Positions 7,116 to 60,274 of a stretch of 64,000 nucleotides of DNA are shown here, piece by piece (position 1 is the first letter of the stretch; every line of letters begins with the position of its first letter). The notes beneath the pieces were generated by a model. The model saw nothing but the letters and a program-made list of their open reading frames with translations. It was not told where the DNA came from and searched no databases. The stretch is from Zanthoxylum bungeanum (lineage: Eukaryota > Streptophyta > Magnoliopsida > Sapindales > Rutaceae): contig SKCR01006528.1 of the NCBI GenBank assembly GCA_019454045.1, positions 310,001-374,000 on the forward strand. The letters are read 5' to 3'. Position numbers and translations under genes: made by a program.

Positions 7116-9354
7116 TGACCGGCGTAAACACACACGTATAACGCAAGCGCACGTATCGTTCAAGTAGTATAAAAATATCGATCCCACGAGGACTTAATTC
7201 CTACTATTGTTATTAATTATTGAATCTATTTATTTACAGATATCTAATTAAATGAAGAAGAGAATGATTGTTTGATTGGTTGAATGTGGTTTTACAAAAT
7301 AAATAAATAAAAAGACAAAAGAAAATACTAAGGAAAATAACAAAAGACACAAAGATCAAGGGTCGTGAATCATTCTAATATCATTTAAAAGATGAAGTGG
7401 TTATTTTATGTTTGTGTAATAAATCAGTTTACTAACCTGGAACACTAAATTATGCAAAAGCCTCTGTCGATGGTCAGACGCAAATACCCAGTTTAACCCA
7501 ATTGAACCATATGTCTATGTCAACCAAATTATCTGGATTCATTAAGTTTAAGTTCCAATTATGGCTACCCCCGCCCGACAGGTATATTCCTATCCTGTAA
7601 GGAATCTATTAAAGGGTTATCTATCCTCAAGGAAGATCGTGGGCTATTAAGTCTAAGGCTGAAACCTAAAATCCCTATGTCTAGTTCATTTTAGATTTAC
7701 CACATCAATCTTATTGGTGATCAGACAACAAGAAGCATTAAGCTTAAGACTTAATAAGTAAACCTTTAAATTACCCAAACTATAAAATAACCTCTTATAA
7801 ACCGGTGATATTAGAATTCATCACAACCCCAGATAACTAACACATAACTAGGGCTAGTAACAACTTAAAAGTAAAAGACATAAAGTAAAAATACTGAAAA
7901 GTAAAAGACATAAAGTAAAACTGAAAAGTAAAATAAAATAAAATGCTAAGGTAAAAGGAATTACTTTTACTACTACTAATTTAGATATCTCCCATAAAAT
8001 AATATATAAACTTGTGATAATAATACCAACCGACCATATAGGCGGTATCCTGATTAAGTCAAATTAAGTCCAACCAGCCATAAAGGCAGAACCAAAATTA
8101 AATTGCCAACCGACCAATCTGGCGGTATCCTTTATTAGTCAGGTTTAAACCAGATTAAAATGAATTACCAACCGACCAATCTGGCGGTATCCTTTTTAAG
8201 TCAATATTTTAAATAATGAATATATTATTTTTAAGGGAGATTAATCTAAATAGTAACAGTAAAAGAATTACCTTTTACCCTAGCTGGGGGAGTTACCTCC
8301 TCATGGTAAATAATAAAAACTGTAAAAAGTAAAAAGTAAAAAGTAAAAATTAAATTACTATATTAACAAAACGTAATTAAAATTATTTACAAAACTAAAA
8401 ACTAAAAATAAAAAAAAAACTAAAAAAACTAAAGAATCTAGAGAGAGAAGCTCTCTCTTTAGAAGGAATTGAAGAGAGAGGAAGGTGCACTGAATTCTGA
8501 AATCTCGAGCTCAATTTATAGGCCTCGGTAGGATCCAGCGTCGCGACGCCAGGTCCTCAGCGTTGCGACACCGGATTTGTCGACGTGGCACGCTCTGGTT
8601 CGCTGGTTTGAAGATTCTGGATAAGATGATAAGGTGACACGTGGCAGAGTGGTTGGGCTTCAATTATTGTGACACGTGGCGGCTTCTGATTGGTCGCTGA
8701 GATTCTTATCCGCCACGTGTCAGATAAGGATAGGATACTCAATTATTGATGCTGACGTGGCGCTGATATGGCGGTGACGTGGCGACACGTGGGAAAGAGA
8801 CTGTCGGCACCATAGAATTGCGACACGTGTCGACACGTGTCACGTTGTGATTGGCTGATGCTGACGTGGCAAGTTGACTTGGTTGACCTTGTGATGTGGA
8901 GGATGACGTGGCGTGACACATGGCGAAGTTGACTTTTTGACCGATGACATGGCTGATGACGAGGCAACACGTGTCAACTCTGAGTGTCGGCAGCATATGA
9001 TGATGACACGTGGCACGGCGCACGTTAGCAGGTCGGCTGTGATGGTGACACATGGCACGGCGCATTTTAGCAAAGTCAAAATTTTCTCAGATTCTGATTT
9101 GTTGACCCAGCGCACGTTAGCACTGTTCGGCGTATTTTAGACGTCACGACGCGGAAGTCTGGGCGTCGCGACGCGCAAAAGACCAAAATAACCCTGTTGA
9201 CGCATTTTTGTCCGTTTTTGCCCCAAATTGCCTCCAATGCTTTCCAAACTTTATTTTATCTACAAAATACATCAAAACGTTCACAAAACTCAAGAAACTA
9301 TACAAAATATTAGGTTAAATGAGTGGGAAATAGTGATATAAATACCACTCATCA
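7116..9354 (-). mobile_element. Solo LTR L3 (family L) inside a chromovirus RT
   Basis: On the minus strand this starts TGATGAGTGG (9354) and ends CGCCGGTCA (7116), 2239 bp, flanked by perfect GGGGC duplications. No internal region is present, so it is a solo LTR left by LTR-LTR recombination. Compared with L1, L2 and L7 it belongs to a second subfamily, shared with L4 and L6. That subfamily carries a GC-richer block (8520-9180) full of CACGTG and GCGTCGCGACGC motifs where the others have minisatellites. The AC-rich AAAAGTAAA simple repeats at 7860-7940 and 8320-8410 also recur in the related copies. Short ORFs inside it are not genes. Confidence 0.93.
8638..9012. promoter_or_regulatory. Cluster of eight G-box (CACGTG) motifs in L3
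   Basis: CACGTG hexamers start at 8638, 8673, 8714, 8786, 8824, 8834, 8968 and 9007. Most are in GACACGTGGC context, the ABRE/G-box core bound by plant bZIP and bHLH factors, and further GACGTGGC half-type sites lie between them. About 0.1 would be expected by chance in 375 bp. The cluster lies upstream (minus strand) of the LTR TATA-like box near 8515, so it fits a U3 enhancer. L4 keeps six and L6 at least three such hexamers; L1, L2 and L7 lack the block. Confidence 0.7.
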
Positions 9355-21286: not shown

Positions 21287-23098
21287 TGATGAGCGGAAAA
21301 TATATCACTTTTTCCTGGCCCTTTGACCTAATATTTTGTATAGTTTCTCGGGTTTTATGAATGTTTTGATGTGTTTTAGTTTATTTTGCAGATAAAATAA
21401 AATCGGGACTCAATGGAATCATTCAGGATGAAATATGGAACAAATAAGGGTAAAAAATGGACTGGACATTTGGATTTTGGAGGTTAGAAACTTGAAATGC
21501 GTTATAACAAAGTACAATTTCAGAAATTTCAACTTTGCATAAGTTTTGTATTTTTGCCATAACTGTTTACTCCGATGTCGGATTGAGTTGATTTAAGTTC
21601 ATGATTAAAGAAGACTCACAGATCTACAACTTTGAAGTTCATAAGATTTTCGAATACTGAAGTTTTCACGACCGAAATTGATGAAAAATCTGAAATTGTG
21701 TTATGTTTAATTACTAAAGTCATTATCAAAAATAAAAATTGTCAAACTTCCACCAAACATGCTTGCATGTTTGGTGGAGTGTTTGGTGGAGGAATTTGTG
21801 GAGTGTTTGGTGGAGTGTTTGGTGGAGAAATTGGTGGAAGCCTTTTCTTTGCCTATAAATACCAAACCATTTCATTTGTAATTCTCATACTTTCCTTGGT
21901 TTCTTAATAAGGAATTAAGGAGTGTATCTTGTGTGTTTTATTTAGTAGTTTTGTAATGTATTTTTATTTTTATTTTTAGTAATAATAGTTTGTTTATTTT
22001 TTATTTCTTTAATGTTTTGTAGTTAAATTTCCGCTGGAGGAAGGGTGAAATCGTTAATATGATAAAGTAGATTAATCTCACTTAACTTATAATATGTAAA
22101 TTGTAATTTAATAATATGGATTAAAGTTTATACCGCCTCAATGGCTGGTTTTATTTATTTGACATAATGTGACACCGCCTATATGGTCGGTCTTTAGGTG
22201 ACAGATGATTACCGCCTATATGGCTGGTTTATGGACAAATAATAACACCACCTTTATGGCTGGTTTGACTTAATTGTGTAACACTGATAATTTCTATATT
22301 ATAATAAAGTGAGATTTCTACATTTGAAATATTAAAAGTGGATCCCCTAACCCCAGCACTTTATTTTTATTAGAGGGAAGTGATGAAGCACAATATTCAC
22401 GAGTTTTATAATTGATTTAATTATTTTATTGGTAATGCTTTGGTTTGTTTATTGAATCTTATGCTTAATGCTTCTTTTTAACTGGCCATTAATAATATTA
22501 ATGTGGTAAACTTAAAATGAACTTGGAAAATAGATTTTTGGTTTCAGCCTTAGATTCAATAGCTCACGATCTCATCTTAGGGCATGGTGACCCTTAGGTA
22601 GATTTTCTTCCAAGATAGATATATACATGTCAGGCGGGGGTAGCCACAATTGGAACTTGAACTTAATGAATTCAGATAACTTGGTTAACATAGGAATATG
22701 ATTAATTAGGTTATACTGGGTGTTTGTATTAGACCATCGGAAGAGTCTTTTGCATATCTTCGTGTTCCAGGTTAGCAAACTGATTTATTAAACATATATA
22801 AGAGAATCAATTCATCATTAGAATAATATTGTGTGGAATCACAACCCTAGATGTTTGTGTCTTTAGTTTATTTTCCTTAGTATTTTCTCTTGTGTTTTTA
22901 TTTATTTATTTACTTAGCAAATCCACTTTCAACCAACCAATCAAGCAATCAGTTCATTCTCCCTTTAATTAGATACATGTAAATAAATAGAATCAATAAT
23001 TAATAACAACAGTAGAAATTAAGTCCTCGTGGGATCGATATTTTTATACTACTTGAGCGATACGTGCGCTTGCGTTACGTGTGTGATTTCACCAATCA
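21287..23098 (+). mobile_element. Solo LTR L2 (family L) in the copia B RT
   Basis: This starts TGATGAGCGG and ends CCAATCA, 1812 bp. The flanking pentamers are TGACG (21282-21286) and GGATG (23099-23103). With copia A reading GGACG at the equivalent right flank, a decayed GGACG duplication is likely. From 21590 it is collinear with L1. No internal region is present, so it is a solo LTR. It carries the TATA box at 21854 and the ACCGCC...GGCTGGT repeats at 22130-22270. Confidence 0.9.
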
Positions 23099-46419: not shown

Positions 46420-47648
46420 TGACCTCATGATTAGCACTTCGACAGTTTTAAGAGAAACATCATGGATATCGAGGAAGAGGAAGCGAGAACAGAAAGTTTT
46501 ATGGTCAGATAGAAAGATCATTGGGGGGCCTTCAGGACAAGCTCGCTCTACTGAGGTCACCGCCACAGAAAAAGGGATCTCCCAATTTTGGTAGACCTTT
46601 GTCAAAGGGTGTTGGAAAAATTGAAGAGGCAAGGAATCCTAAAACCCTTAGAACCTAAACCACTTCAAAACTTGTGCCACACCCCTCGACCTAAACCTAT
46701 TACATCACTTCCATCAGCAAAAAAGCCACGAACTGACAACTGCACCTGCCTTAGGCATGAGATCCAATACCTCATTGACACCCATAAGATATCCATCCCA
46801 GAAAAAGAACAACCCAACACAAACGGAAACCCTCTACCCAACTACCACTCCATTCCACCACCCACCTACATGATCAACTTTGGCCTGCTCGAAGGCTTTG
46901 TCCTCCAAACTCTCAACCACCAAGCTTTTTGCATGGGGGTATGGGACAGCAGTAGTGAAGATGAAACAGAGCAGGGGAGAGATTTCTGGGAAAACTTCTC
47001 GAGCAGTGACGAAGAGGAGGTAAATGGGATGACTCGCAATGGACATTTTTATAGTGATGTAACAGAGTAAAAGAAAGCCGAGAGGTGATGGAGAATACGG
47101 ATAACACTGATGGGGATACTATGTTCCGTCAATTGAAGAAGACACGGGCACAAGTGATCATATGGGAGTTATTATGCGCCTCTCATGAGCATAGACGTGC
47201 CATAGTAGAAGTTCTAAGTAAGATAATGGTACCTAAAGATGCAAACTCGACAATGTTCGTAGGGTCGGTACAGAAAGAGGGTAGGCTGATGATAACATTC
47301 TCTAAAGAAGAGCTCCCGATGGAGGGGGAGGGGAGGAATCACAAAAAGCCGCTATTCATAAAAGCAGAAGAAGTAGAGAGGCAATAAGACATCTTGTATG
47401 ATTCTGTCAAGGTTGGGTATGCAGACAACAGATTTAAGCCTCTCCAGCATTACTATCAAGCATCGATCCACATTAGCAACTATGATAGCACATCAGAAGA
47501 TAGCAAGAGTTGATCGAGACTAAGCGTCACATCAAGATCACAAGTGTGCCTGATAGAAGACAAGGTGGAGTTCACAGTGCTTGATATCCCAGCTACATTT
47601 GCTCTGTTATTGGGGAGGCCATGGTTTTATAGACTTGGGGCATGCCAT
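46420..47648 (+). pseudogene. Tat element 2 gag end, linker and protease
   Basis: After the C2 break the gag/linker resumes. An open 160-codon frame (46588-47070) contains VLEKLKRQGILKPLEPKPL, a RTDNCTCLRHEIQYLID knuckle-like remnant, NPLPNYHS and SSEDETEQGRDFW. The 47085-47387 frame gives FRQLKKTRAQVIIWELLCA and HKKPLFIKAEE. The protease active-site stretch is deleted. The region ends TVLDIPATFALLLGRPWFYR at 47640, where L4 is inserted. Confidence 0.88.
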
Positions 47649-49743
47649 TGACCAGCGTAAACACACGCGTATAACGCAAGCTCACGTATCGTTCAAGTAG
47701 TATAAAAATATTGATCCCACGAGGACTAAATTCCTACTATTGTTATTAATTATTGAATCTATTTATTTACAGATATCTAATTGAGAGAGAAAAGAATGAT
47801 TACTTGATTGATTTGATTGATTGTAGAATTGCTAAATAAATAAATAAATGAAAAGACAAAAGAAAATACTAAAGAAAATAACAAAAGACACAAAGATCTA
47901 GGGTTGTGAATCATTCTAATATCATATAAAAGATGAAGTGGTTATTTCATGTTTGTGTAATAAATCAGTTTACTAACATGGAACACTAAATTATACAAAA
48001 GCCTCTGTCACGCAAATACCCAGTTTAACCGAATTGAACCATATGTCTATGTCAACCAAATTATCTGGATTCATTAAGTTTAAGTTCCAATTATGGCTAC
48101 CCCCGCCCCACAGGTATATGTCTATCCTGTAAGGAAATCTATTAAAGGGTTATCTATCCACAAGGAAGATCGTGGGCTATTAAGTCTAAGGCTGAAACCT
48201 AAAATCCATATGTCTAGTTCATTTTAGATTTACCACATCAATCTTATTGGTGATCAGACAACAAGAAGCATTAAGCTTAAGACTTAATAAGTAAACCTTT
48301 AAATTACCCAAACTATAAAATAACCCCTTATAAACCGGTGATATTAGAATTCATCACAACCCTAGATAACTAACACATAACTAGGGCTAGTAAAAACTTA
48401 AAAGTAAAAGACATAAAGTAAAAATGCTGAAAAGTAAAATAAAATAAAATGCTAAGGTAAAAGGAATTACTTTTACTATTTAATATTTTAGATATCTCCC
48501 ATAAAATAATATATAAACTTGTGATAATATTACCAACCGACCAATCTGGCGGTATCCTTTATTAGTCAGGTTTAAACCAGATTAAAATGAATTACCAACC
48601 GACCAATCTGGTGGTATCCTTTTGAAGTCAATATTTTAAATAGTGAATATATTATTTTTAAGGGAGATAAATCTAAATAGTAACAGTAAAAGAATTACCT
48701 TTCACCATAGCTGGGGAAGTTACTTCCTCATGGTGAATCGTAAAAACTGTAAAAAGTAAAAAAAAAGTAAATTACTATATTAACAAAACGTAATTAAAAT
48801 TTTTTACAAAACTAAAAACTAAAAAAACTAAAAAAAACAAAAAGAAACTAGAGAGAGAAACTCTCTCTTTATATAGAATAGAAGAGAGAGAGTGGTGCCA
48901 CTAAAACTGAAATTTGAAGCTCTATTTATAGGCCTCGTTAGGCTTCCAGAGTCGCGACGCTGAGCCCTTTGGCGTCGCTACGCCAGCTTCTGTCGAAGTG
49001 GCACGCTCTGGTTCGTCTGTTTGCAGATTCTGGATAAGCTGATAAGGTGACACGTGGCAGAGTGGTTGGGCTTCAATTATTGTGACATGTGGCAGCTTCT
49101 GATTGGTCGATGAGATTCTTATCCGCCACGTGTCAGATAAGGATTAGATACTCAATGATTGATGCTGACATGGCGGTGACATGGCGGTGACGTGGCGGTG
49201 ACATGGCGACACGTGGGAAAGAGACTTTCGGCACCGTAGGATTGCGACACGTGGCACTTCCTGATTCGCTGATGATGACGTGGCGATGAGGTGGCAGTTT
49301 GACTTGGTCAACCTGGTGATGTGGCTGATGGCGTGGCAATGGCGTGGAGTGACATGTTGCACACGTGGTGATGATGACTGTCAGCACCGTAGGATGCTGA
49401 CACGTGGCACGGTGCATTTTAGCAGATCGGTTGTGATGGTGACATATGGCACGACGCACGTTAGCAAAGTCAAACTTTTCTCAGATTCTGATTTGTGGAC
49501 CCGGCGCACGTTAGCACTGTTCGGCGCATGTTAGGCGTCGCGACGCGGAAGGTCTTGGCGTCGCGACGTGAGTAATTACCAAAATGCCTTTTTCGTCCAA
49601 TTTTCACTGTTTTGGCCCAAATCACCTCCAGAATGTCCTGAAACTTTATTTATCTACAAAATAACACAAAACACATCAAAATATTCATAATACTCAAGAA
49701 ACTATACAAAATATAAGGTTAAATGAGTGGGAAATAGTGATAG
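47649..49743 (-). mobile_element. LTR L4 (family L) in the Tat element 2 protease
   Basis: On the minus strand the 3' end is complete (...CGCTGGTCA at 47649). The 5' terminus (normally TGATGAGTGGTAAT...) lacks about 15 bp at 49743, so no target duplication can be read. It belongs to the G-box subfamily, with six CACGTG hexamers between about 49055 and 49405 and GCGTCGCGACGC palindromes near 49535 and 49560. No internal region is attached. Protease coding continues on both sides. Confidence 0.9.
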
Positions 49744-50982
49744 ATTTACACCAAGTTATTAAGTTCCCGCATTGAGAGGAAGTCGTCACCATGAGGGCTG
49801 AAATAGACAATGATGTTGTGGCTGCTTTAGACATACAATCTTTCACAAGGTTCCAAGTGACAGCAAACTTCAAAGAATGGGTGGACCCAAAGTGGCTAGA
49901 ATCATGGAAATAATGAAATATAAGCCGGGCATAGGTTTGAGTGCTAGAGGCCAGGGAGTAAGAGCACTGCCAGATTTCAAGGGACATACCACTAAGAGAG
50001 GATTGGGGTATGAATCCGATGGGAATGAGCCGAAGACCAAGAAAAAAATGATGAAGCTGATGGAATACTTTATGAAAGCCACAAGGTATCAATGAGAGCC
50101 TGAACCAATAGAAGTCAATCAATGAGATCATAGTACCAGGATTTGAAATCTTCAAGGATGTGATGGGCCAAAGAACCACAGGCAGAGGAAGTTGTAAAAG
50201 AGGAAGATAAAGGAAGAAGAACTACTGTAGTTGTTGGAGATCTGACACTCGAAGAAATCAAGGAGACAGAAGAAGACAAGACTGCAAATTACGAAGATGT
50301 TTATTTTCCTGACCATTTGATTGTAATCCTGTATTTATTAATAAAGACATTGATTTTGCTTACTTGTTCGAGTCCTTTCCTGTTAGTCTGCATCATAACA
50401 TGCATGACATGAGCATATTTGACATTGACTCAACAAAGACAAATGTATTTAATCTTGGTACATGTGAAAACCCCAAGGAAATTTCAATTGCAAGTTAGGT
50501 TACCTCTGTTGAGCGGAAAGAATTAGAGAGAATATTAATAAAATATGCAAAAGTATTCGCCTGGTTCTATGAAGACATGCCAGAAGTGGACAAGGGTATT
50601 GCACAGCACATGATACCAACTTATCCGAACATGAGACCAGTGAAATGAATGAAGCCGAAGAATGAGGCTAGAATGGGCCGCAAAGGTTAGGGAATAAGTC
50701 AAAAAGCAGATAGATGTGGGGTTCTTAGAGGTGGTGAAGTACCCCGAGTGTGGTTAGCCAACATTGTGCCAGTGCCGAAGAAGGATGGAATGTCAGAATG
50801 TGTGTGGATTATAGGGACCTCAACAAAGCTTGGCCAAAGGATGATTTTACCCTACCCCATATAGACGTTTTGGTTGATAGCACGGCTTTATCTGCTATGT
50901 ACTCATTCGCAGATGGATTCTCAGGATATAACCAGGTCCTCATGGCCGAAGAAGACAAGCATAAGACTGTCTTCATCACTAT
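49744..50982 (+). pseudogene. Tat element 2 protease end, G-patch-like segment and RT start
   Basis: The sequence reads HQVIKFP, then FKEWVDPKVARIMEIMKYKPG and GLGYESDGNEPKTK (the G-patch-like segment), a decayed linker, and from about 50750 the RT: NIVPVPKK, MCVDYRDLNKAWPKDDFTLP and MYSFADGFSGYNQVLMAEED, up to KTVFIT at 50980. There it breaks into the L5 LTR, before the YMDD box. It is the same family as 29600-30830. Confidence 0.88.
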
Positions 50983-51246
50983 TGGACCCGGCGCACGTTA
51001 GCTTGGACCTGGTGCATGTTAGGCGTCGCGACGCCAAAGGCTTGCGCGTCGCGACGCGCGAAATGACCAAAATGCCATTTTCGTCTGTTTTCACTGTTTT
51101 GGCCCCAAATCACCTCCAGAAAGTCCTGAAACTTTATTTATCTAGAAAATAACACAAAACACATCAAAATATTCACAAAACTCAAGACACTATACAAAAT
51201 ATTAGGTTAAATGAGTGGGAAATAGTGATATAATTACCACTCATCA
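50983..51246 (-). repeat. Truncated 3' LTR L5
   Basis: This starts (minus) TGATGAGTGGTAATTATATC at 51246 and matches L6 (57182 downward) through the GCGTCGCGACGC motifs. It breaks at about 50983 into Tat RT codons. Confidence 0.88.
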
Positions 51247-52574
51247 CACCTCCAAACCTAACATTTTTCTAGTCCTCGAGCAAAACACAGAGTAAAATAA
51301 AATAAACATCTTTAAAATAAAATTTATTTAAGCCACTTTCGTAGGGATCACGGTTGCATTTAGCGTATGCAACAAGCCTTTAAACCCCTAGGTGTCCCTA
51401 GTGGACGAGTTGTAGTCTCGTCAGGGTTTACAGCAATGATACCACAAACATTTTACAAAAGTAAAAAGGTAGTGAAACTAATGCATACAAAAACAAAAAG
51501 ACAAGCGAAAAGAGAATAAAGAAGTTAGTGACTAATCAGGTGAAACTTCTACTCCAAGTTACTAGTTGTTTTCTTTCTTTCTAAATTACTGAATAAGTAA
51601 ATTCTCCAATTATATTTATCATTCTCAATATACACAGCCAACAAAATATTAAACAACTCATTTTTGCCCACAACACTCATAAGTGCAGTTGATAAAAGAG
51701 TAATATTTTTGTCCTAAAGTTTTATCGGAGTTCAAATCTTTTTATAGCAATGGAATAATTTTTCTCATTTTTCTGATTTTTTCTTTGATTTTTGATTTTT
51801 TTTTATTTATATACAATATCTTCCATCTATGTAGCGAGTGTTGGGTCGGTGACTCCCAAACTAGTTGGCTTTAGGGCACAAGGTGTTAAGACACCCCTAC
51901 GGACTTAATTACTCAAACTTCAGATATATATATATTTTTTTGCAACATCCTTGATCCATCTAGCAAGCTTTGGGCCAGTGACTCCCAAACCAGTTGGTTT
52001 TAGGGCACTAGGTGTTAAATCAGCCTTACAGACTTAATAACTCAGATCTCAGACTTTTTTTTTTACTCCATTGCTTTTTGAGATGCTTCCTCCAATTAAA
52101 CTAGAGCACTGAATATTACAAACTTTTCAATTATAGCTCATGTCCGTATGTTCAATGCATGTTGATAATAACTGCCAACTGAGCATATGAAGATCCATTT
52201 TAGTTAGTATTATGGAGAATTCACAAATTAAATAATTCAAAATGAAATAAACAAAAATTAACTTGTTCCGAATTGAGATACGTCTCAGGAGTGGAAACTC
52301 CTTACACAGATATCTCTTACCAATTTCACCTTTTTAGTCAAAATAAAAACACAAAAACGCAAAATATTTTTGTAATTTTTGAAAAATTTTCAATTTTTTT
52401 TGTATTTTTCGAAAAATTTTGGACTAAAAATAAAAACAACACACAAACTAAAAATAAGGTATTGATCAACTAATTCCCTCCCTCAAACCTAAATGAGACA
52501 TTGTCCCCAATGTCTTAAACAGTAGAAGAAGAGTTTAGGAGATAATACCTGGTTAGCTGAAATTCTACAGGAAA
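51247..52574 (-). other. 3' internal region of the L element with two polypurine-like tracts
   Basis: On the minus strand, GGTTTGGAGGTG (51258-51247) is the terminal polypurine tract. An upstream AGGTTTGAGGGAGGGA follows GACAATGTCTCATTT near 52515-52480. A ~129-bp unit with GGGAGTCACTGGCCCAAAG-like sequence is present twice (around 51851 and 51980) and also in the sister element at 57340 and 57465. Poly-A/T runs lie at 51775-51810 and 52370-52410. Nothing is coding. The part 51247-52141 is the inverted partner of 57183-58059. Confidence 0.8.
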
Positions 52575-53227
52575 TTAAAGGTTAAGATCCAGATTAATCC
52601 GACGCCTCTTACCACAATCGTCCTCGGACCAATTTATCTTTGAAAGGATAGGGTCAACTTGTGGTTCATAGGCTAAGATTTGGTCAATTAGATCCGGAGC
52701 AGTTCTCGCAGTGAAGAGGAGTTCTTTTAAAGGTTTTGACACGAACCCATTTCTCCGGGCGTCATCAAGAAACACAAAAAGAAAATCATAAAATCCATCA
52801 ACGTTGTACAGTCCAAGCGGTTTCTGGTGTATGTTCAGGTTCGCAAAGATAGCACTATAAAAATTTCCTCCAATGTACCCAAGCCACCTGGCAAAGCAAT
52901 AAAAGCATCGGCACAGTTAATCATTTCTACCAATCGTTCAGACATACCTTGCACGATCTGTTCCTCTCCGTTTGATTATCCAATAAGATTTGCCTCTGCC
53001 AAGGGTTTTGGGATGATTCCCAAAACGTGACTGCCTCATTCATGTACGGCCTTTGAAACGATCCCCATTAGTCCAAGATTGCCTCCGCCATATACTAAGT
53101 GCATATTCCTTGCAGCTAAGACTCGACCCAATTCATGTGTTGCTTCTACATATTGTGGCTTAGTACCAACACTAGTTCTGCAAAACACACAGATGTTTTC
53201 AACTCGTCTTCTTGAAGTGGCTTCCAT
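52575..53227 (-). pseudogene. Captured LOG-type cytokinin riboside 5'-monophosphate phosphoribohydrolase, intronless
   Basis: Plant LOG enzymes release active cytokinin bases from nucleotide precursors in the cytosol. From ATG at 53227 the reading has the family's opening NICVFCRTSVGTKP (normally CGS rather than CRT), VYGGGNLGLMG at residues 45-55 and GSHVLGIIPKPLAEANLIG. Then come [11 protein letters not shown] and the nucleotide/substrate-site motif PGGLGTLEE (about 52865-52891). After a frameshift near 52858 follow NIHQKPLGLYNVDGFYD, ARRNGFVSKPL and a basic tail ending NLDLNL. The total length, about 217 codons, equals a normal LOG protein. TGA at 53036, TAA at 52976 and the frameshift disable it. 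Exons that plant LOG genes split by introns are contiguous here, indicating passage through RNA. It lies in sense inside an LTR element, between gag and polypurine tract. Any of several LOG paralogues could be the source. Confidence 0.9.
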
Positions 53228-53732
53228 GTTTTACTCTGGATGTCTTCAAAAGGGCAATGACAATTGAATTTATAGTACCTGAAAAAGGGTGAGTAATAAT
53301 AGCAGTAGTATCTTCCATAGGACGTTTTTTAGCTAAACAACAAAAGAAATCGTGAAAGGTCAAAAAGTCTGGATCCTATCTACGAAAATATAGATAATTA
53401 CAACAGAAAAGCAAATCAAAGCAATAATTAAGGCAACAGAATTGTGTACAAAATACGCCATTCGCTTAGTATAAATTCATTAGGATGCGTCTCAAGAATA
53501 CATTCCTTACTCAGCCATCGCTAATGAATTATCTTTTATCTTTGCCAAACACCATCTCTTCTGTCTTATGCTTTGGTTGAGCTTTTCCCTACAAAAATAA
53601 CACATAAAATTAAAAACTCTACAACATGTATACACAAAATATAAAAACAGAAATTACAACAAAGTGCATGGGTTGCCTCATTGCTAGCGCTAAATTTTTC
53701 GTCTTCAGCCAGACGTGACTGAAATTCATCTG
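53228..53732 (-). other. Spacer between gag-like ORF and LOG-like gene
   Basis: This is non-coding and AT-rich. On the minus strand a TTTTTCAGGTACTATAAATTC stretch (with a TATAAATT box near 53260) lies about 35-60 bp upstream of the LOG ATG. It could be host 5' UTR/promoter-proximal sequence taken along, or element sequence; I cannot tell. Toward 53690 the GCTAGCGCTAAA / GAGGCAACCCATG motif is one often seen near the end of gag-pol in Athila/Tat-like elements. Confidence 0.5.
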
Positions 53733-54971
53733 TCAAGGAGATTTCAGCGTGGTTTTGGATGTCCGATTAAAGACAATCCCATGAGCGTTGCTTTTGAAGG
53801 GTCTCTTCCAACAGTAAAGTGGCAAAAAGAATTTTGTCATATTTCGTGCTTGTGCCACCTTTTTAACCTTTATTGCTCCAGTGGTTCCTGAAAAGAAAGA
53901 AATAAAATCATGAGGTCTCGTATGGTGCTTGACCTTGAATGGAAGTTCCATTCTATCAAGCTTCCGTGTGATATCTCTAAATTGTACTCCCAAAACAGTG
54001 ATGTTTCTTCTGAATGCTCTGGATCTTTAATAAGTTCAGACATTTGCTCTTCCATTTGCTCTGCTTCTTGCTCCACCTTTTCTTCACATATGTATTTTAG
54101 GATTTCCTCATCCAGTTCTTCATCTGTCATTAGTGAAATGCATGCTCCATAAGTATCTGCCTGAGGATGTAAAGATGTTTCTGACATTAGGTCCTATGAT
54201 ACGACTGGAATGGATGGTTCAGGTAGATCTTCATCAAACATCATGGCAAAGCATGCTCCAAGATCTTCATTTTGAGGATACAGAATTCCATCCTCATTTG
54301 TTGGTGCAGTTGGTACAAATAGCTCAGCTTCTTCATCCTCGTCAGAGTCAGAATAAAAAAAATCAAACCGAGATTTTGTTGGTTCAAGCTCCTAAACTGA
54401 TACATCTGATTCTTGATACTGCTCAGCCTCATCCACTGTTATGATGTCATGATGAATCTCAGGATATTCGAAGGCTTCTTCAGTATTATTTGAATTTGCT
54501 CCGTGAGATATGTGATTCAGGTTGTCTGTTAATTGTCTAACTTGATCTGTCATCCTCTATATAGACGCCTCTTGACTCTGAATGTGTGCATCAAATTGAG
54601 CTTCCGTTCCTCGAACCAATCTTTGAGCATGTGAATCAACTGATCTTCCTCTGATGGTTCTGGTTCTTGATGAAGATCGTAGATGGATGGTGGATAAGAT
54701 GGAAAGTATGATGGTTCTTGTACCTTGAATGATTCCAATAATTCTGCCACTCTGAAAGGTATATACATTGATCGCTCGGGTGGTTACCATCACATATTAC
54801 ACATCTCCCCATTTCGTTCTGATGAGCAAATGTAGTATTGCTTGATTCTGACATCCAGTGATAGTTGTTGAGCTGGTCAACAGGCCTTAGAAAATCGGAC
54901 TGTTGTTCCCAGATTTGGGGTGTATCTTTTAGTAAAGCTCGTGATCTCTCAATCTCCCAATAATGTTCCAT
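53733..54971 (-). pseudogene. Gag-like acidic ORF of the L element
   Basis: From ATG at 54971 the reading MEHYWEIERSRALLKD is followed by a zinc-knuckle-like motif CVICDGNHPSDQC (C-X2-C-X3-H-X4-C), of the type found in Athila-like gags. After a frame change it continues AELLESFKVQEP and MLKDWFEERK, then MTDQVRQLTDNLNHI (short coiled coil). A long acidic stretch follows with a doubled motif, DLGACFAMMFDEDL and TYGACISLMTDEEL, and a Glu-rich run EEKVEQEAEQMEEQM. A basic tail, FRDITRKLDRMELPFKVK, sits in another frame. Several stops and shifts are present. No enzymatic domain is seen. It is probably an element structural protein; the acidic C-terminal half is unfamiliar. Confidence 0.6.
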
Positions 54972-55063
54972 TTTTCAATCACCTGCAAACAAAAGAAAAA
55001 AAAATTACAGATAAAAATAAAGAAAATTAGATACAAGTAAATTAATAACTCAAGAAAAATAAG

Positions 55064-55081
55064 TCCCCGGCAACGGTGCCA
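55064..55081 (-). other. Primer-binding site, tRNA-Asp type
   Basis: The minus strand reads TGGCACCGTTGCCGGGGA, complementary to the 3' end of plant tRNA-Asp with one mismatch (family form TGGCGCC...). It lies six bases inside the TGGTCA end of LTR L6. Such sites are usual in Athila-like Ty3/gypsy elements. Confidence 0.88.
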
Positions 55082-55087
55082 AAAACT

Positions 55088-57182
55088 TGACCAGCGTAAA
55101 CACACACGTATAACGCAAGCGCACGTATCGTTCAAGTAGTATAAAAATATCGATCCCACGAGGACTTATTTCCTACTGTTGTTATTAATTATTGATACTA
55201 TTTATTTAAAGGTATCTAATTTTAGGGAGAAGAGAATGATTGTTTGATTGGTTGGTTGAATGTGGTTTTCCTTAATTAAAATAAACAAAAGAAAATAATA
55301 AGGAAAATAACAAAAGACTCAAAGATCTAGGGTTGTGAATCTTTCTAATATCTTTTAAAAGAAGAAGTGATTATTTTATGTTTGTGTAATAAATCGGTTT
55401 ACTAACCTGGAATACGAAATTATGCGAAAGCCTTTGTCGATGGTCAGACGCAAATACCCAGTTTAACCCAATTGAACCATATGTCTATGTCAACCAAATT
55501 AAATGGATTCATTAAGTTTAAGTTTCAATTATGGCTACCCCCGCCCGACAGGTATATGTCTATCCTGTAAGGAAATCTATTAAAGGATTATATATCCTCA
55601 ATAAAGATCGTGGGCTATTAAGTCTAAGGCTGAAACCTAAAATTCCTTTGTCAAGTTTATTTTAGATTTACCACATCAATCTTATTGGTGATCAGACAAC
55701 AATAAGCATTAAGCTTAAGACTTAATAAGTAAACCTTTAAATTACCCAAACTATAAAATAACCCTTTATAAACCGGTGATATTAGAATTCATCACAACCC
55801 TAGATAACTAACACATAACTAGGGCTAGTAAAACTTAAAAGTGAAAGATATAAAGTAAAAATGCTGAAAAGTAATTGCGGTAAAGTAAAAGCTTAAAAGT
55901 AAATTACAATAAAATAAAATGCTAAGGTAAAAGGATCAACTTTTACTAATTACTATTTAGATATCTCCCTTAATATAATATATTAACTTGTGATTATTTT
56001 ACCAACCGTCCATATAGGCAGTAACCTGATTAAGTCAAATTAAGTCCAACCAGCCATAAAGGCGAACCAAAATAACCAGCCATAAAGGCGGAACCAAAAT
56101 AACCTGCCATATAGGCGGTAAGAAAATTTAATTACCAACCGACCAATCTGGCGGTATCCTTGATTAGTCAAGTTTAAACCAGATTAAAATGAATTACCAA
56201 CTGACCAATCTGGCGGTATCCATTTTAAGTCAAATTTTAAATAGTGAATATATTATATTTAAGGGAGATTAATCTAAATAGCAATAGTAAAAGAATTACC
56301 TTTCACCATAGCAGAGGGAAGTTACCTCCTCATGGTGAATAGTAAAAACTGTAAAAAGTAAAGAAAGTAAATTACTAATATTACAAAACGTAATTAAAAT
56401 TAATTACAAAGCTAAAAACTAAAAGAAAATAGATAGAAAACTCATTATTTACATCAGAGAAATTAGAGAGGAAGGTACATTTGAAACTGAAATCTCGAGC
56501 TCAATTTATAGACCCCGGTAGGCCTCCAGCGTCGCGACGCCATCACTTTTTGGCGTGGCATGCTGAGGTGATGACACGTGGCGATTCTGGATAAGGAGAT
56601 AAGGCGACACGTGGTGAGGCGGCTAACAACTCAATTATTATGCTGACATGGCGATGGCGACTGTCGGCACCATAGGATTGCGACACATGGCACTTCGTGA
56701 TTGGTTGATGATGACATGGCGATGAGATGGCACTTTGACTCGGTAAACTAGTGATGTGGATGATGATGTGGCAGTGATGTGGAATGACATGTGGCAATGC
56801 AATTTTTGGCACCATATGATGATGACACGTGGCACGTCGCACGTTAGCAGATCGGTTGTGATGGTGACACATGGCACGGCGCACGTTAGCAAAGTCAAAC
56901 TTCTCAGATTCTGATATATTGACCCAGCGCACGTTAGCATGGACCCGGTGCATGTTATGTGTCGCGACGCCAAAGGCTTGCGCGTCGCGACGTGCGAAAT
57001 GACCAAAATGCCATTTTCGTCCGTTTTCACTGTTTTGGCCCCAAATTACCTCCAGAAAGTCCTGAAACTTTATTTATCTACAAAATAACACAAAATACAT
57101 CAAAATATTCACAAAAATCAAGAAACTATACAAAATATTAGGTTAAATGAGTGGGAAATAGTGATATAATTACCACTCATCA
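55088..57182 (-). repeat. 5' LTR L6 of the LOG-carrying element
   Basis: 2095 bp from TGATGAGTGG (57182) to CGCTGGTCA (55088). It contains at least three CACGTG G-boxes (about 56575, 56609, 56826), GCGTCGCGACGC palindromes (56528, 56960-56990), the GGCGGT/AACCGACC repeats (55995-56225) and a CAATTTATAGACC box near 56503 as the TATA region. It is collinear with L3 and L4. Confidence 0.93.
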
Positions 57183-58059
57183 ATGAGCTATAATTGAAAA
57201 GTTTGTAATATTCAGTACTCTAGTTTACTTGGAGGAAGCATCTATGAAAAACATTGGAATAAAAAAAAACGTCAGAGATCTGAGTTATTAAGTCCGTATG
57301 GGTGTTTTAACACCTAGTGCCCTAAAACCAACTGGTTTGGGAGTCACTGGCCCAAAGCTCGCTACATGGATCAAAGATGTTGCAAAAATATATATATCTG
57401 AAGTCTGAGTAATTAAGTCCGTAGGGGTGCCTTAACACCTGGTGCTCTAAAGCCAACTGGTTTGGGAGCCACTGACCCAACACTCGCTACATAGATAGAA
57501 GAAATTGTATATAAAAAAAAATCAAAAAATCAAAGAAAAAAATCAGAAAATTTATTCCATTGCTGCAAAAAGGTGTGAATTCTGATAAAACTTTAGGACA
57601 AAAATATTACTCTCTTATCAACTGCACTTGTGACTGTTGTGGGCAAAAATGAGTTGATTAATATTTTTGTCAGCTGTGCATATGGAGAATGGTAAATATA
57701 ATCGGAGAATTTACTTATTCAGTAATTTAGAAAGAAAGAAAACAACTAGTAACTTGGAGTAGAAGTTTCACCTGATTAGTCACTAACTTCTTTATTCTCA
57801 TTTCTCTTGTCTTTTTGCTTTTGTGTGCATTAGTTTTATTATCTTTTTACTTTTATAAAACGTTTGTGGGTATCGTTGCTGTAAGCCCTCACGAGACTAT
57901 AATTCGTCCACTAGGGACACCTAGGGGTTTAAAGGCTTGTTGCATATGCTAAATGCAACCGTGATCCCTACGAAAGTGGCTTAGTTTACTTTTAATTGTT
58001 TCTTGTATTTTAATTTATTGTTTTGCTCGAGGACTAGCAAAATGTTAGGTTTGGGGGTG
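57183..58059 (+). other. 3' internal region of a second L element (opposite orientation)
   Basis: This is collinear with the reverse complement of 51247-52141, including the two ~129-bp units and the GCTCGAGGACTAGCAAAATG stretch before the polypurine tract TTTGGGGGTG at 58050-58059. It begins abruptly at ATGAGCTATAATTG, exactly where L6 ends; gag and the LOG region of this copy are absent. No ORF is conserved. Confidence 0.85.
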
Positions 58060-60274
58060 TGATGAGCAGAAAATATATCAATATTTACCGCCCCTTTTAC
58101 TTAATATTTTATTTAGTTTCTCGGGTTTGATGAACGTTTTGATGTGTTTTAGTTTATTTTGCAGATAAAATAATATTGGGACACAATGAAATCATTTAGG
58201 ACGAAATGTGGGTCAAATAAGGGCAAAAATTGGACTTGACATATTAATTTTGGAGATTGGAAACTTGAAAGGGCGTTTTAACGAAGTGCAGTTTTGGAAA
58301 TTCCAGTTTTGCGCATCTGTCGTATTTTGGGCATAACGTTTTACTCCGATATCGGATGGAGCTGATTCAAGTTTTATATGAAAGAAGACTCAAAGATATA
58401 CAACTTTGAAAGACAAAATAATTTCAAATTTTGAAGATTTCATGCCCGAAATTGATGAACCAGACAGAAGTGTGTTGTGTGTAATTATTAAAGTCATTTT
58501 CAATCATTTTCAAAGCCAAAAAAATAAATTAATAAATAAATAATAAAAATTATCAAATCACCACCGAACATGATAAGCAATTAGTGGAGCAATTAATAAT
58601 GGATTTGGTGGAGCAATTAGTGGAGCAATTAGTGTAGCAATTAATAATGGATTTGGTGGATGATTTGATGGAGGCAAAATTTTGCTTATAAATACCAAGC
58701 CATTTCACTTGTAAATTCATATTTTCTTCTAAGGAATTCCTCAAGAATACTAAGAAGATTGTATATTGTTTGTTTATTTATAGCTTTCAGTAATTAATTT
58801 CCGCATTCGCACTTTCTTTTATTTACTTTTCAGTTTTTACTTTCCACAATTTACTTTTACGCACATTACTTTTCTTTCATTAATTTTCAGTTTTTACTTT
58901 TCAGTAATGAGGAGGTAACTCCACTTTGCTGGGGTAAAAGGTAAAACTTTTATTACTAATATCTAGATTAATCTCCCTTAATTATAATATATAAACTAGT
59001 TAAAACCTGACTTAACGAGGATACCGCCATATTGGTCGGTTGATAATTATTTAAATTGGTTTTAACCTGACTAAACTGGATACCGCCTGATTGATCAGTT
59101 GGTAATTAATTATTAATTTGACTTAATCTGGATACCGCCTATATGGCTGGTTGGTAATTATCATGCAAAGTTAATATATTATATTAATGGAGATATCTAA
59201 AATAGAAGTAATAAAAGTGGATCATTTTACCTCATCATTTTCTTTTATTGTACTTTTACTTTATTACTTTTCAGTAATTTACTTTTCAGCATTTACTTTT
59301 CAGCAATTTACTTTTCAGCAATTACTTTCAGCATTTACTTTTCAGCAATTTACTTTTCAGCAATTTACTTTTCAGCATTTAATTTTCAGTAATTTACTTT
59401 TCAGCATTTACTTTTCAGCATTTAATTTTCAGTATTTAATTTCCGCATTAACTTTCTGTCATTTACTTTTCAGCAATTTACTTTTCAGCATTTTACTTTA
59501 TGTCTTTTATTTTATTTAAGTTTTTACTAGCCCTAGTTATGTGTCGTAACTAAGTTAGTTATCTGGGGTTGTGATGAATTCTAATATCACCGGTTTATAA
59601 GGGGTTATTTTATAGTTTGGGTAATTTAAAGGTTTACATATTAAGTCTTAAGCTTGATGCGTCTTGTTAATTGGCCACTAATAAGATTGATCTAGTAAAT
59701 CTAAAATAAATTTGACAAATGAATTTTAGGTTTCAGCCTTAGACTTAATAGCCCACGATCTTCCTTGAGGATAGATAACCCTTTAATAGATTTCCTTACA
59801 GGATAAACATATACATGTCGAGCGGGGGTAGCCATAATTGGAACTTAAACTTAATGAATCCAGGTAATTTGGTTGACATAGACATATGGTTCAATTGGGT
59901 TATACTGGGTATTTACGTCTGACCATCGACAGAGGCTTTCGCATAATTTAGTGTTCCAGGTTAGTAAACCGATATATTACACAAAAATGAAATAACCACT
60001 TCATCTTTAAAATGATATTGGAAGATTCACAACCCTAGATAGTTTCCTAATATTGAATTTTATTAAACCTACTTTCGCGCAATTTTATTTACTTGTTTTT
60101 AAATTCAAAATCATCACCATTTCAAATCAATCAATCAACATGTTAGATACTAGCAATCATTTGACCTCATAAAATTAATAGATTAGGTCTTAAGTCCTCG
60201 TGGGATCGATACTTTTTATACTACTTGAACGATACGTGCGCTTACGTTATACGCGTGTGATTACGCACCGGTCA
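58060..60274 (+). repeat. 3' LTR L7 of the second L element
   Basis: 2215 bp from TGATGAGCAG to GCACCGGTCA. Promoter box TATAAATA is at 58687-58694 and ACCGCC/GGTCGGTT repeats are at 59030-59150. Unlike L3/L4/L6 it has a GGAGCAATTAGT minisatellite (58585-58670) instead of the G-box block, so it resembles the L1/L2 subfamily. It ends inside the antisense ORF of the next Tat element. Confidence 0.92.
59240..59500. repeat. ACTTTTCAGCAATTT tandem array in L7
   Basis: About fifteen degenerate copies of a ~15-17 bp unit (TTACTTTTCAGCAATTT / TTACTTTTCAGCATT) occur here, with a smaller group at 58840-58915. The array explains the repetitive FQQFTF frame on the plus strand. The related LTRs have the reverse-complement AAAAGTAAA-type repeats at the same position with fewer units. 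Confidence 0.85.

Follow-up and report, generated by a model that had tools for sequence, protein, structure and literature searches.

A LOG-derived gene in a very large Ty3/gypsy retrotransposon family of Zanthoxylum bungeanum, next to an open reading frame whose relatives match viral zinc-finger protein models

LOG-like domains in long terminal repeat (LTR) retrotransposons of citrus and poplar are already published. One survey (PMC9289625), which cites Steinbauerova 2011, records a YgdH (LOG-like) domain among the consensus sequences of LTR retrotransposons from Citrus sinensis, C. clementina and Populus trichocarpa. That source also describes Gypsy elements, in two Phalaenopsis species only, which encode an ALKBH5-like RNA demethylase with demonstrated activity. 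In other plant elements the place after pol holds env-like or additional open reading frames (ORFs), according to PMC7264820. Here we describe a LOG-derived coding sequence at positions 52575..53227, minus strand, of a 64,000-nucleotide window (the whole stretch analysed) from Zanthoxylum bungeanum (GenBank assembly GCA_019454045.1, contig SKCR01006528.1, positions 310,001 to 374,000). The sequence is broken by two stops and one deleted base. The element carrying it has decayed, is non-autonomous and belongs to a Ty3/gypsy LTR-retrotransposon family of very large size.

This family is like the Citrus and Populus elements in that a LOG-type domain is found in plant Gypsy elements, and the Populus trichocarpa protein P0046 falls into the same clade as the copies studied here; no Citrus element LOG was among the rows we compared. 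The two descriptions differ in that the section of PMC9289625 on these elements treats the domain as one entry of a domain survey and is silent on the copy number, the selection, the non-autonomous carriers, the neighbour resembling viral nucleic-acid-binding proteins (NABP), the tail and the pocket discussed below. Position, sense orientation and presence in most family copies are shared with plant LTR elements having additional ORFs, unlike a one-off transduction, whereas the identifiable origin from a host enzyme family and the neighbouring ORF related to viral NABP proteins set the element LOG apart from them. The ALKBH5-like elements of Phalaenopsis are analogous in keeping a captured host-type enzyme domain across rounds of copying, but there the enzyme is another one, its activity has been demonstrated, and the distribution is limited to two species. 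In the open-licence literature searched, we recognised no description of the tail, the pocket change, the selection, a retrotransposon ORF of Carla_C4/NABP type, or a family this large.

Translation of the minus strand at 52575-53227 gives a LOG protein of 217 codons. Aligned to one natural open copy, it has in-frame stops at codons 64 and 84 and lacks one base near codon 127, after which the basic tail is readable in the changed frame. The sequence-only reading had seen an intronless, full-length-sized LOG gene in sense orientation within an LTR element having a primer-binding site (PBS) and a polypurine tract, with two stops, one frameshift and a basic C-terminal tail, and all of this holds on the minus strand. 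Natural open copies are recognisable LOG proteins: L024 and L043 match PF03641 at 114 and 122 bits (cutoff 27), L024 matches At2g37210 (2a33) with E=2.2e-56, and the PGGxGTxxE motif and the catalytic Arg and Glu are present.

When the window LOG was compared with its genome, all 40 scored places matched the whole 653 bases at 94-100% identity (from 6304 first-look candidates, the window included). A 32-base pattern from the LOG core (the PGGLGTLEE part, up to 2 mismatches) has 22,351 matches in the genome and a 39-base pattern from the LOG tail (up to 3 mismatches) has 23,902, which bears on the count of LOG-carrying elements that the sequence-only reading had proposed; a pattern from the NABP-like ORF has 21,760. 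These are counts in the assembly, in which some loci may be present twice (the LOG sequences of L022 and L025 are identical). Reversed-pattern controls for LOG core and tail and a control for the NABP-like pattern gave 0 matches, so that, together with the 40 whole-length matches, chance is excluded.

Two non-random samples of loci were fetched, L009-L028 by similarity to the window LOG and L031-L050 by the upstream ORF. Within the first sample, 9 of 20 also match the 5' half of the window interior (L014 in rearranged form), whereas in the other 11 the match to the interior begins some 200 bases 5' of LOG. Carriers of the window type have an end resembling the gag C-terminus and are without capsid or pol. 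The other carrier type contains reverse transcriptase (RT), RNase H and integrase in L012 and L019; derivatives L015, L025 and L027 contain gag and protease-like parts with a gap in pol; and the region upstream of L019, read as L051, provides a 5' LTR, a PBS and gag, split by another insertion. Pfam matches above cutoff in the longer copies are Retrotrans_gag, RVT_1, RT_RNaseH, Integrase_H2C2 and rve, while the aspartyl protease is below cutoff. No single fetched copy is whole, but the Ty3/gypsy order (gag, pol, with RT-RNase H before integrase) is seen in L012, L019 and L051, and the longer members jointly almost certainly encode gag, a protease-like part, RT, RNase H, integrase, the NABP-related ORF and then the LOG ORF. 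As LOG comes after integrase, its position is the one that env-like or additional ORFs take up in other plant elements. Only one RNase H region was found, at L019:1275-2303, which bears on a candidate placement in the Athila lineage; an extra RNase H (aRH) marks the Tat lineage (PMC6317226). Of 20 loci, 7 have a pair of LTRs, and in four of these the pair is close to full length; the Kimura two-parameter (K2P) distances of 0.024-0.058 make the sampled insertions look young beside the LOG capture itself. Among three loci examined, L028 has a 5-bp target-site duplication, GGTAC; the 3' LTR of the window copy is cut.

Relatives of the element LOG are present in several other plants. Element-type clusters include 28, 29 and 12 members in Reevesia, 39 and 35 in Xanthoceras, and 205 in another set. 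In Acer yangbiense, the predicted protein P0123 fuses part of the NABP-like ORF to LOG; its NABP-like part is identical to another Acer copy at 105 of 150 aligned positions, and the zinc-finger stretch is absent. In Xanthoceras, the NABP-like ACOSQ2_032187 (P0203) and the LOG gene ACOSQ2_032186 (P0129) have consecutive locus tags and agree in the length given for their longest contig. The element context thus rests on protein models and locus tags in Acer and Xanthoceras, and on PMC9289625 in Populus and Citrus. When viral contigs were scanned with P0001, no relative was confirmed.

A tree of 56 proteins groups 40 element-type LOGs, drawn from the genome under study, Populus, Acer, Xanthoceras and Reevesia, into a single clade (100/100) with a stem of 0.64. 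The clade lies within host rows of LOG7 type, next to a Lithospermum protein (97/89) and two Asteraceae proteins (92/82), its exact place being unsure given the long stem and the inclusion of only two other host LOG types. Rows for the tree and the pocket comparison were hand-picked from the best 120 rows of the lists of LOG relatives. By search as well as by tree, the closest host proteins are of LOG7 type, and 7 of the 14 host rows carry the name LOG7 or LOG7-like in the source annotation. A single ancient origin of the element LOG is accordingly highly likely. As had been expected from plant genes in general, two host LOG genes of this genome contain introns (L029, with at least 4 blocks, and L030), and since the element form lacks them, the origin may have been one long-ago capture of a spliced host transcript. 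By eye, L029 and L030 belong to host LOG types other than LOG7. The P0046 gene of Populus trichocarpa, which falls within the transposon clade, is named LOGL10. The idea that the window element itself transduced a host message fares differently from that of a spliced origin: LOG belongs to the standard make-up of a family that gives about 20,000 matches, follows integrase in the pol-bearing copies and forms one clade with multi-copy genes of other plants, so the window element did not itself capture it.

The reading frame is open to codon 217 in 9 of 40 fetched loci. The first sample contributes 7 of its 20 loci, two of them with identical sequences, and the second 2 of its 20, which answers in the affirmative whether any other copy keeps it open. 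L031 has no stop, but its start is unaligned; the 150 scored LOG hits favour stop-free frames. Variants among 38 copies were then sorted by frequency, near-copies L009, L022 and L047 having been dropped. Singletons comprise 51 synonymous, 157 replacement and 16 stop changes, against 51, 159 and 14 expected from the singleton mutation spectrum. For variants in 2-3 copies the counts are 35, 47 and 5, and for those in at least 4 copies 35, 32 and 2 (Fisher test against singletons, p=1.8e-5). Private variants look neutral, and shared variants show purifying selection. With 18 copies (L009 and L022 dropped) LOG gives p=0.0017, while the 3' noncoding control gives odds ratios of 1.14-1.56 in its three frames (p=0.053-0.57). 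Among wrong-frame controls for LOG, frame 1 has no signal and frame 2 an opposite one (p=0.0019), as expected because third positions vary; the wrong-frame control of the NABP-like ORF is similar (frame 2, p=0.022). All these p-values are rough, the copies being related. Such a pattern is to be expected of a gene that active elements require but that has no further use once a copy has inserted, and a selected protein function of the element LOG is very probable. The grouping of copies with the codon-64 stop into one clade was tried and rejected (7 changes on scattered branches of a weakly resolved tree).

The catalytic site and its surroundings may provide some clues regarding that function. 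According to PMC4979012, CgLOG uses Arg99 and Glu122 for catalysis, and Met96, His97, Lys100, Glu121, Glu125 and Trp129 surround the adenine and prenyl groups; alanine at AMP-binding and catalytic residues, K100 being named among them, nearly abolishes activity, S19A excepted. We placed these numbers by motif. Of 47 clade members chosen for the comparison, all 47 retain Glu122 and 41 retain Arg99, but only 9 retain Lys100 and 8 Glu125, whereas 14 host rows and AtLOG3 keep all examined pocket residues. In 38 copies of the genome itself, position 100 is Leu in every one and H97 is always replaced by S or F; each of the 37 copies readable at position 125 has Ile, Thr or Leu there, and R99 and E122 are kept in 33 and 38 of 38. 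The adenine/prenyl pocket of a cytokinin-activating LOG (M96 H97 K100 E121 E125 W129) is thus not present as such. The element proteins differ from the LOG7-type cytokinin riboside 5'-monophosphate phosphoribohydrolases, their closest host relatives, in having a gene without introns, in the replacement of K100 and E125 in most cases and in a new C-terminal tail. With both residues exchanged in this genome and in the majority of relatives, it is doubtful that the protein simply activates cytokinin, and so is the label "cytokinin-activating" first given to the gene. In P0009, P0010, P0012 and P0027 the catalytic Arg is Gln and the P-loop is mostly kept, a hint that these proteins may bind without catalysis.

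Copies in the genome end in KRRRINLDLNL, a basic stretch followed by an LxLxL-like one, whose codons each differ in no more than 5 of 38 copies; such a tail is absent from all 14 host rows. It may be a nuclear signal followed by a putative LxLxL (EAR-like) repression motif. Most of the Acer/Xanthoceras group has the basic end only (KKRRLA, KRRRLD), and P0052 has KRRRLDLTLHL. The seven members of this group and P0052 keep the old pocket, so the pocket change and the long tail look like later steps within the clade.

Between integrase and LOG there is a further ORF, found in L012, L015, L019 and L025, with relatives of about 182 amino acids. The copy in L019 matches Carla_C4 with E=0.0016 (18.8 bits, cutoff 20.9) and Viral_NABP with E=0.017 (15.5 bits, cutoff 23). 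A protein search found 211 relatives in many plants, including Orobanche and Rhamnella, in clusters of up to 566 members. In 20 relatives chosen from the best 120 of the 211, Pfam reports Carla_C4 in 20 and Viral_NABP in 18, with P0183 above both curated cutoffs, which P0205 passes too. Loci fetched by means of this ORF have LOG downstream in 20 of 20, although at two of these loci LOG is fragmented. The basic and zinc-finger region of those relatives above the Pfam cutoffs resembles the cysteine-rich proteins of carlaviruses, allexiviruses and mandariviruses, but here it belongs to a retrotransposon ORF, and silencing suppression is reported for the viral proteins. A carlavirus zinc-finger protein is reportedly, going by the title of a 2013 study by Lukhovitskaya, a plant transcription factor tied to cell proliferation. 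Viral proteins of the Carla_C4/Viral_NABP type are described in PMC12172455 as RNA-silencing suppressors and pathogenicity determinants.

The LOG ORF may have its own promoter, a suggestion from candidate signals in the sequence. A candidate TATA box, TATAAATTC, is located at 53266..53274 (minus strand), 47 bases 5' of the LOG ATG. Of the 41 upstream pieces, 37 were used, and it recurs in 36 of these, mostly at 48 bases from the ATG, where the median for window 9-mers is 4 of 37. GCTATTATT at -76 is equally frequent (36/37), TTACTCAC occurs in 35/37, and TTTTCAG, a possible splice acceptor, precedes the ORF in 29/37. The acceptor-like word is thus less conserved than the TATA-like site, but since other upstream words equal that site in conservation, either a promoter or a spliced message may apply. 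Protein models P0009 and P0010 (about 65% identity) extend upstream with residues that TATAAATTC-type sequence would encode.

Taken as a whole, the observations are somewhat better explained than not by an ancient capture, a selected element protein and a changed nuclear role beside the NABP-like protein. The LOG product would be an element protein with a changed job, probably made from its own TATA-type promoter or from a spliced message. The basic tail may carry it into the nucleus, where it could bind or cleave a nucleotide ligand, and the tail, if EAR-like, could recruit co-repressors; jointly with the NABP-like protein, it would make host cells favour copying of the element. Judged from residues and motifs, the nuclear role as opposed to ordinary cytokinin activation is a tentative proposal, short of an even chance. 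Distinctly unlikely, though conceivable, is a two-gene nuclear cassette for host manipulation, in which a viral-type cysteine-rich zinc-finger protein and a LOG re-purposed through its nuclear, EAR-like tail and a different ligand would counter silencing and drive proliferation; such a cassette would be the transposon's equivalent of a viral accessory-gene region and of an age that lets several plant orders share it. Several observations weigh against a selected, nuclear partner of an NABP-like protein. The LOG frame is broken or incomplete in 31 of 40 fetched loci, and the codon-64 stop allele (TGA) has 591 exact matches against 4,172 for the open GGA and is present in long and short carriers, so either recombination spread the allele or copies lacking a complete LOG have amplified. 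The tail motif is short, and 6 of 47 clade members have another residue in place of the catalytic Arg. The prenyl site of MmLOG also differs (PMC4979012), so that a changed pocket is compatible with LOG activity. As for the neighbour, the L019 copy is below both Pfam cutoffs, P0123 has no NABP match in Pfam and its model is without the zinc-finger stretch, and selection in the ORF is weak (p=0.038 in 10 copies out of 11 long-type loci).

The strongest competitor is a working cytokinin-activating enzyme, by which local cytokinin would keep cells dividing or meristematic so that new copies reach the germ line. It would account for the catalytic Arg and Glu in most copies of the genome (R99 33/38, E122 38/38) and for every examined pocket residue being intact in seven Acer/Xanthoceras-group members and P0052, and it would suit a carlavirus zinc-finger protein reportedly linked to proliferation. 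MmLOG, moreover, is treated as a LOG despite its different prenyl site in PMC4979012. We still regard this enzyme as rather unlikely, given that, of 47 clade members, 38 have lost the K100 equivalent and 39 the E125 equivalent, as have all readable copies of the genome, and that CgLOG alanine mutants at AMP-binding and catalytic residues other than S19A are nearly inactive in the same source.

The remaining alternatives deny the protein a role in the element. A functionless passenger, captured once and spread by fast amplification of the element, would explain the many broken loci and the multiplied stop allele; the enrichment of shared variants for synonymous change and the persistence of ORF and tail in relatives from several plant genera already disfavour it and make it improbable. 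Action as RNA, with small RNAs silencing host LOG genes, would draw on the very high copy number, but selection is at the protein level, and a piece of AtLOG3 matches element copies at 50-54% protein identity compared with 70-90% for host exons of the same genome (LOG7 of this genome not being among the exons compared), which would leave little room for 21-24-base matches; we consider it very improbable. Finally, gene identity by itself would fit a plain host LOG gene or a later independent retrocopy in one element. That reading is refuted and its probability practically nil, as the same LOG stands in the same place in 20 of 20 first loci, pattern matches number about 20,000, and LOG adjoins the NABP-like ORF in Acer and Xanthoceras; plain host gene and independent insertion are ruled out alike.

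In the window, the element lies on the minus strand. Its 5' LTR (55088..57182, about 2.1 kb, identified from LTR repeats) has the ends TGATGAG...GGTCA by eye, and similar ends are found in L011, L026 and L028. The PBS (55063..55081, minus) is immediately 3' of this LTR, with an equivalent place at L051:3263 in a pol-bearing copy; we take it, as a candidate label, to be of tRNA-Asp type. A remnant ORF (54636..54971, minus, from the ORF list) contains a CxxCx3Hx4C zinc knuckle and is gag C-terminal-like without a capsid domain. By tblastn, homology to the gag C-terminus reaches significance in three (L017, L021, L026) of the 7 other short copies compared and stays below it in the window ORF, and a Pfam scan of the window's gag-like pieces found no gag domain. 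The "gag-like ORF" noted earlier thus keeps its link to gag through the other copies, but it appears from its sequence to be the C-terminal (nucleocapsid) part only. Downstream of LOG, the 3' noncoding part includes two tandem copies of a 129-base unit, 77% alike (51794..52051, no strand assigned, family D6), and by eye a polypurine tract-like stretch (51247..51258, minus) preceding the 3' LTR (50980..51246, minus), which is truncated at 50980 and 95% identical to the 5' LTR across 267 bases.

Within the LTRs, for example at 56540-56960 of the window, many repeated CACGTGGCA-like and GCACGTTAGCA-like motifs were seen by eye and are possibly regulatory. A second interior piece of the same type (57183-58059, plus, 89% identical) adjoins the 5' LTR in opposite orientation in a nested arrangement. 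Other LTR copies or fragments of the family, in both orientations and with main pieces 78-87% identical, are at 47648-49749, 7116-9354, 836-1547, 21287-23088 and 58867-60266. Opposite-strand polyprotein pieces with an RT-like segment (49780-50979, plus) end at the start of the truncated 3' LTR, and the element may have inserted into another gypsy element there.

The family represents a hormone-pathway enzyme family in about 20,000 mobile copies, its protein kept under selection by a selfish element. The question whether plant retrotransposon proteins act on host physiology or silencing is thereby made testable. For annotation there is a warning, as the "LOGL10" of Populus trichocarpa (P0046) belongs to the transposon clade. 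Through the NABP-like neighbour, a retrotransposon lineage is linked, in one direction or the other, with accessory proteins encoded by plant RNA viruses.
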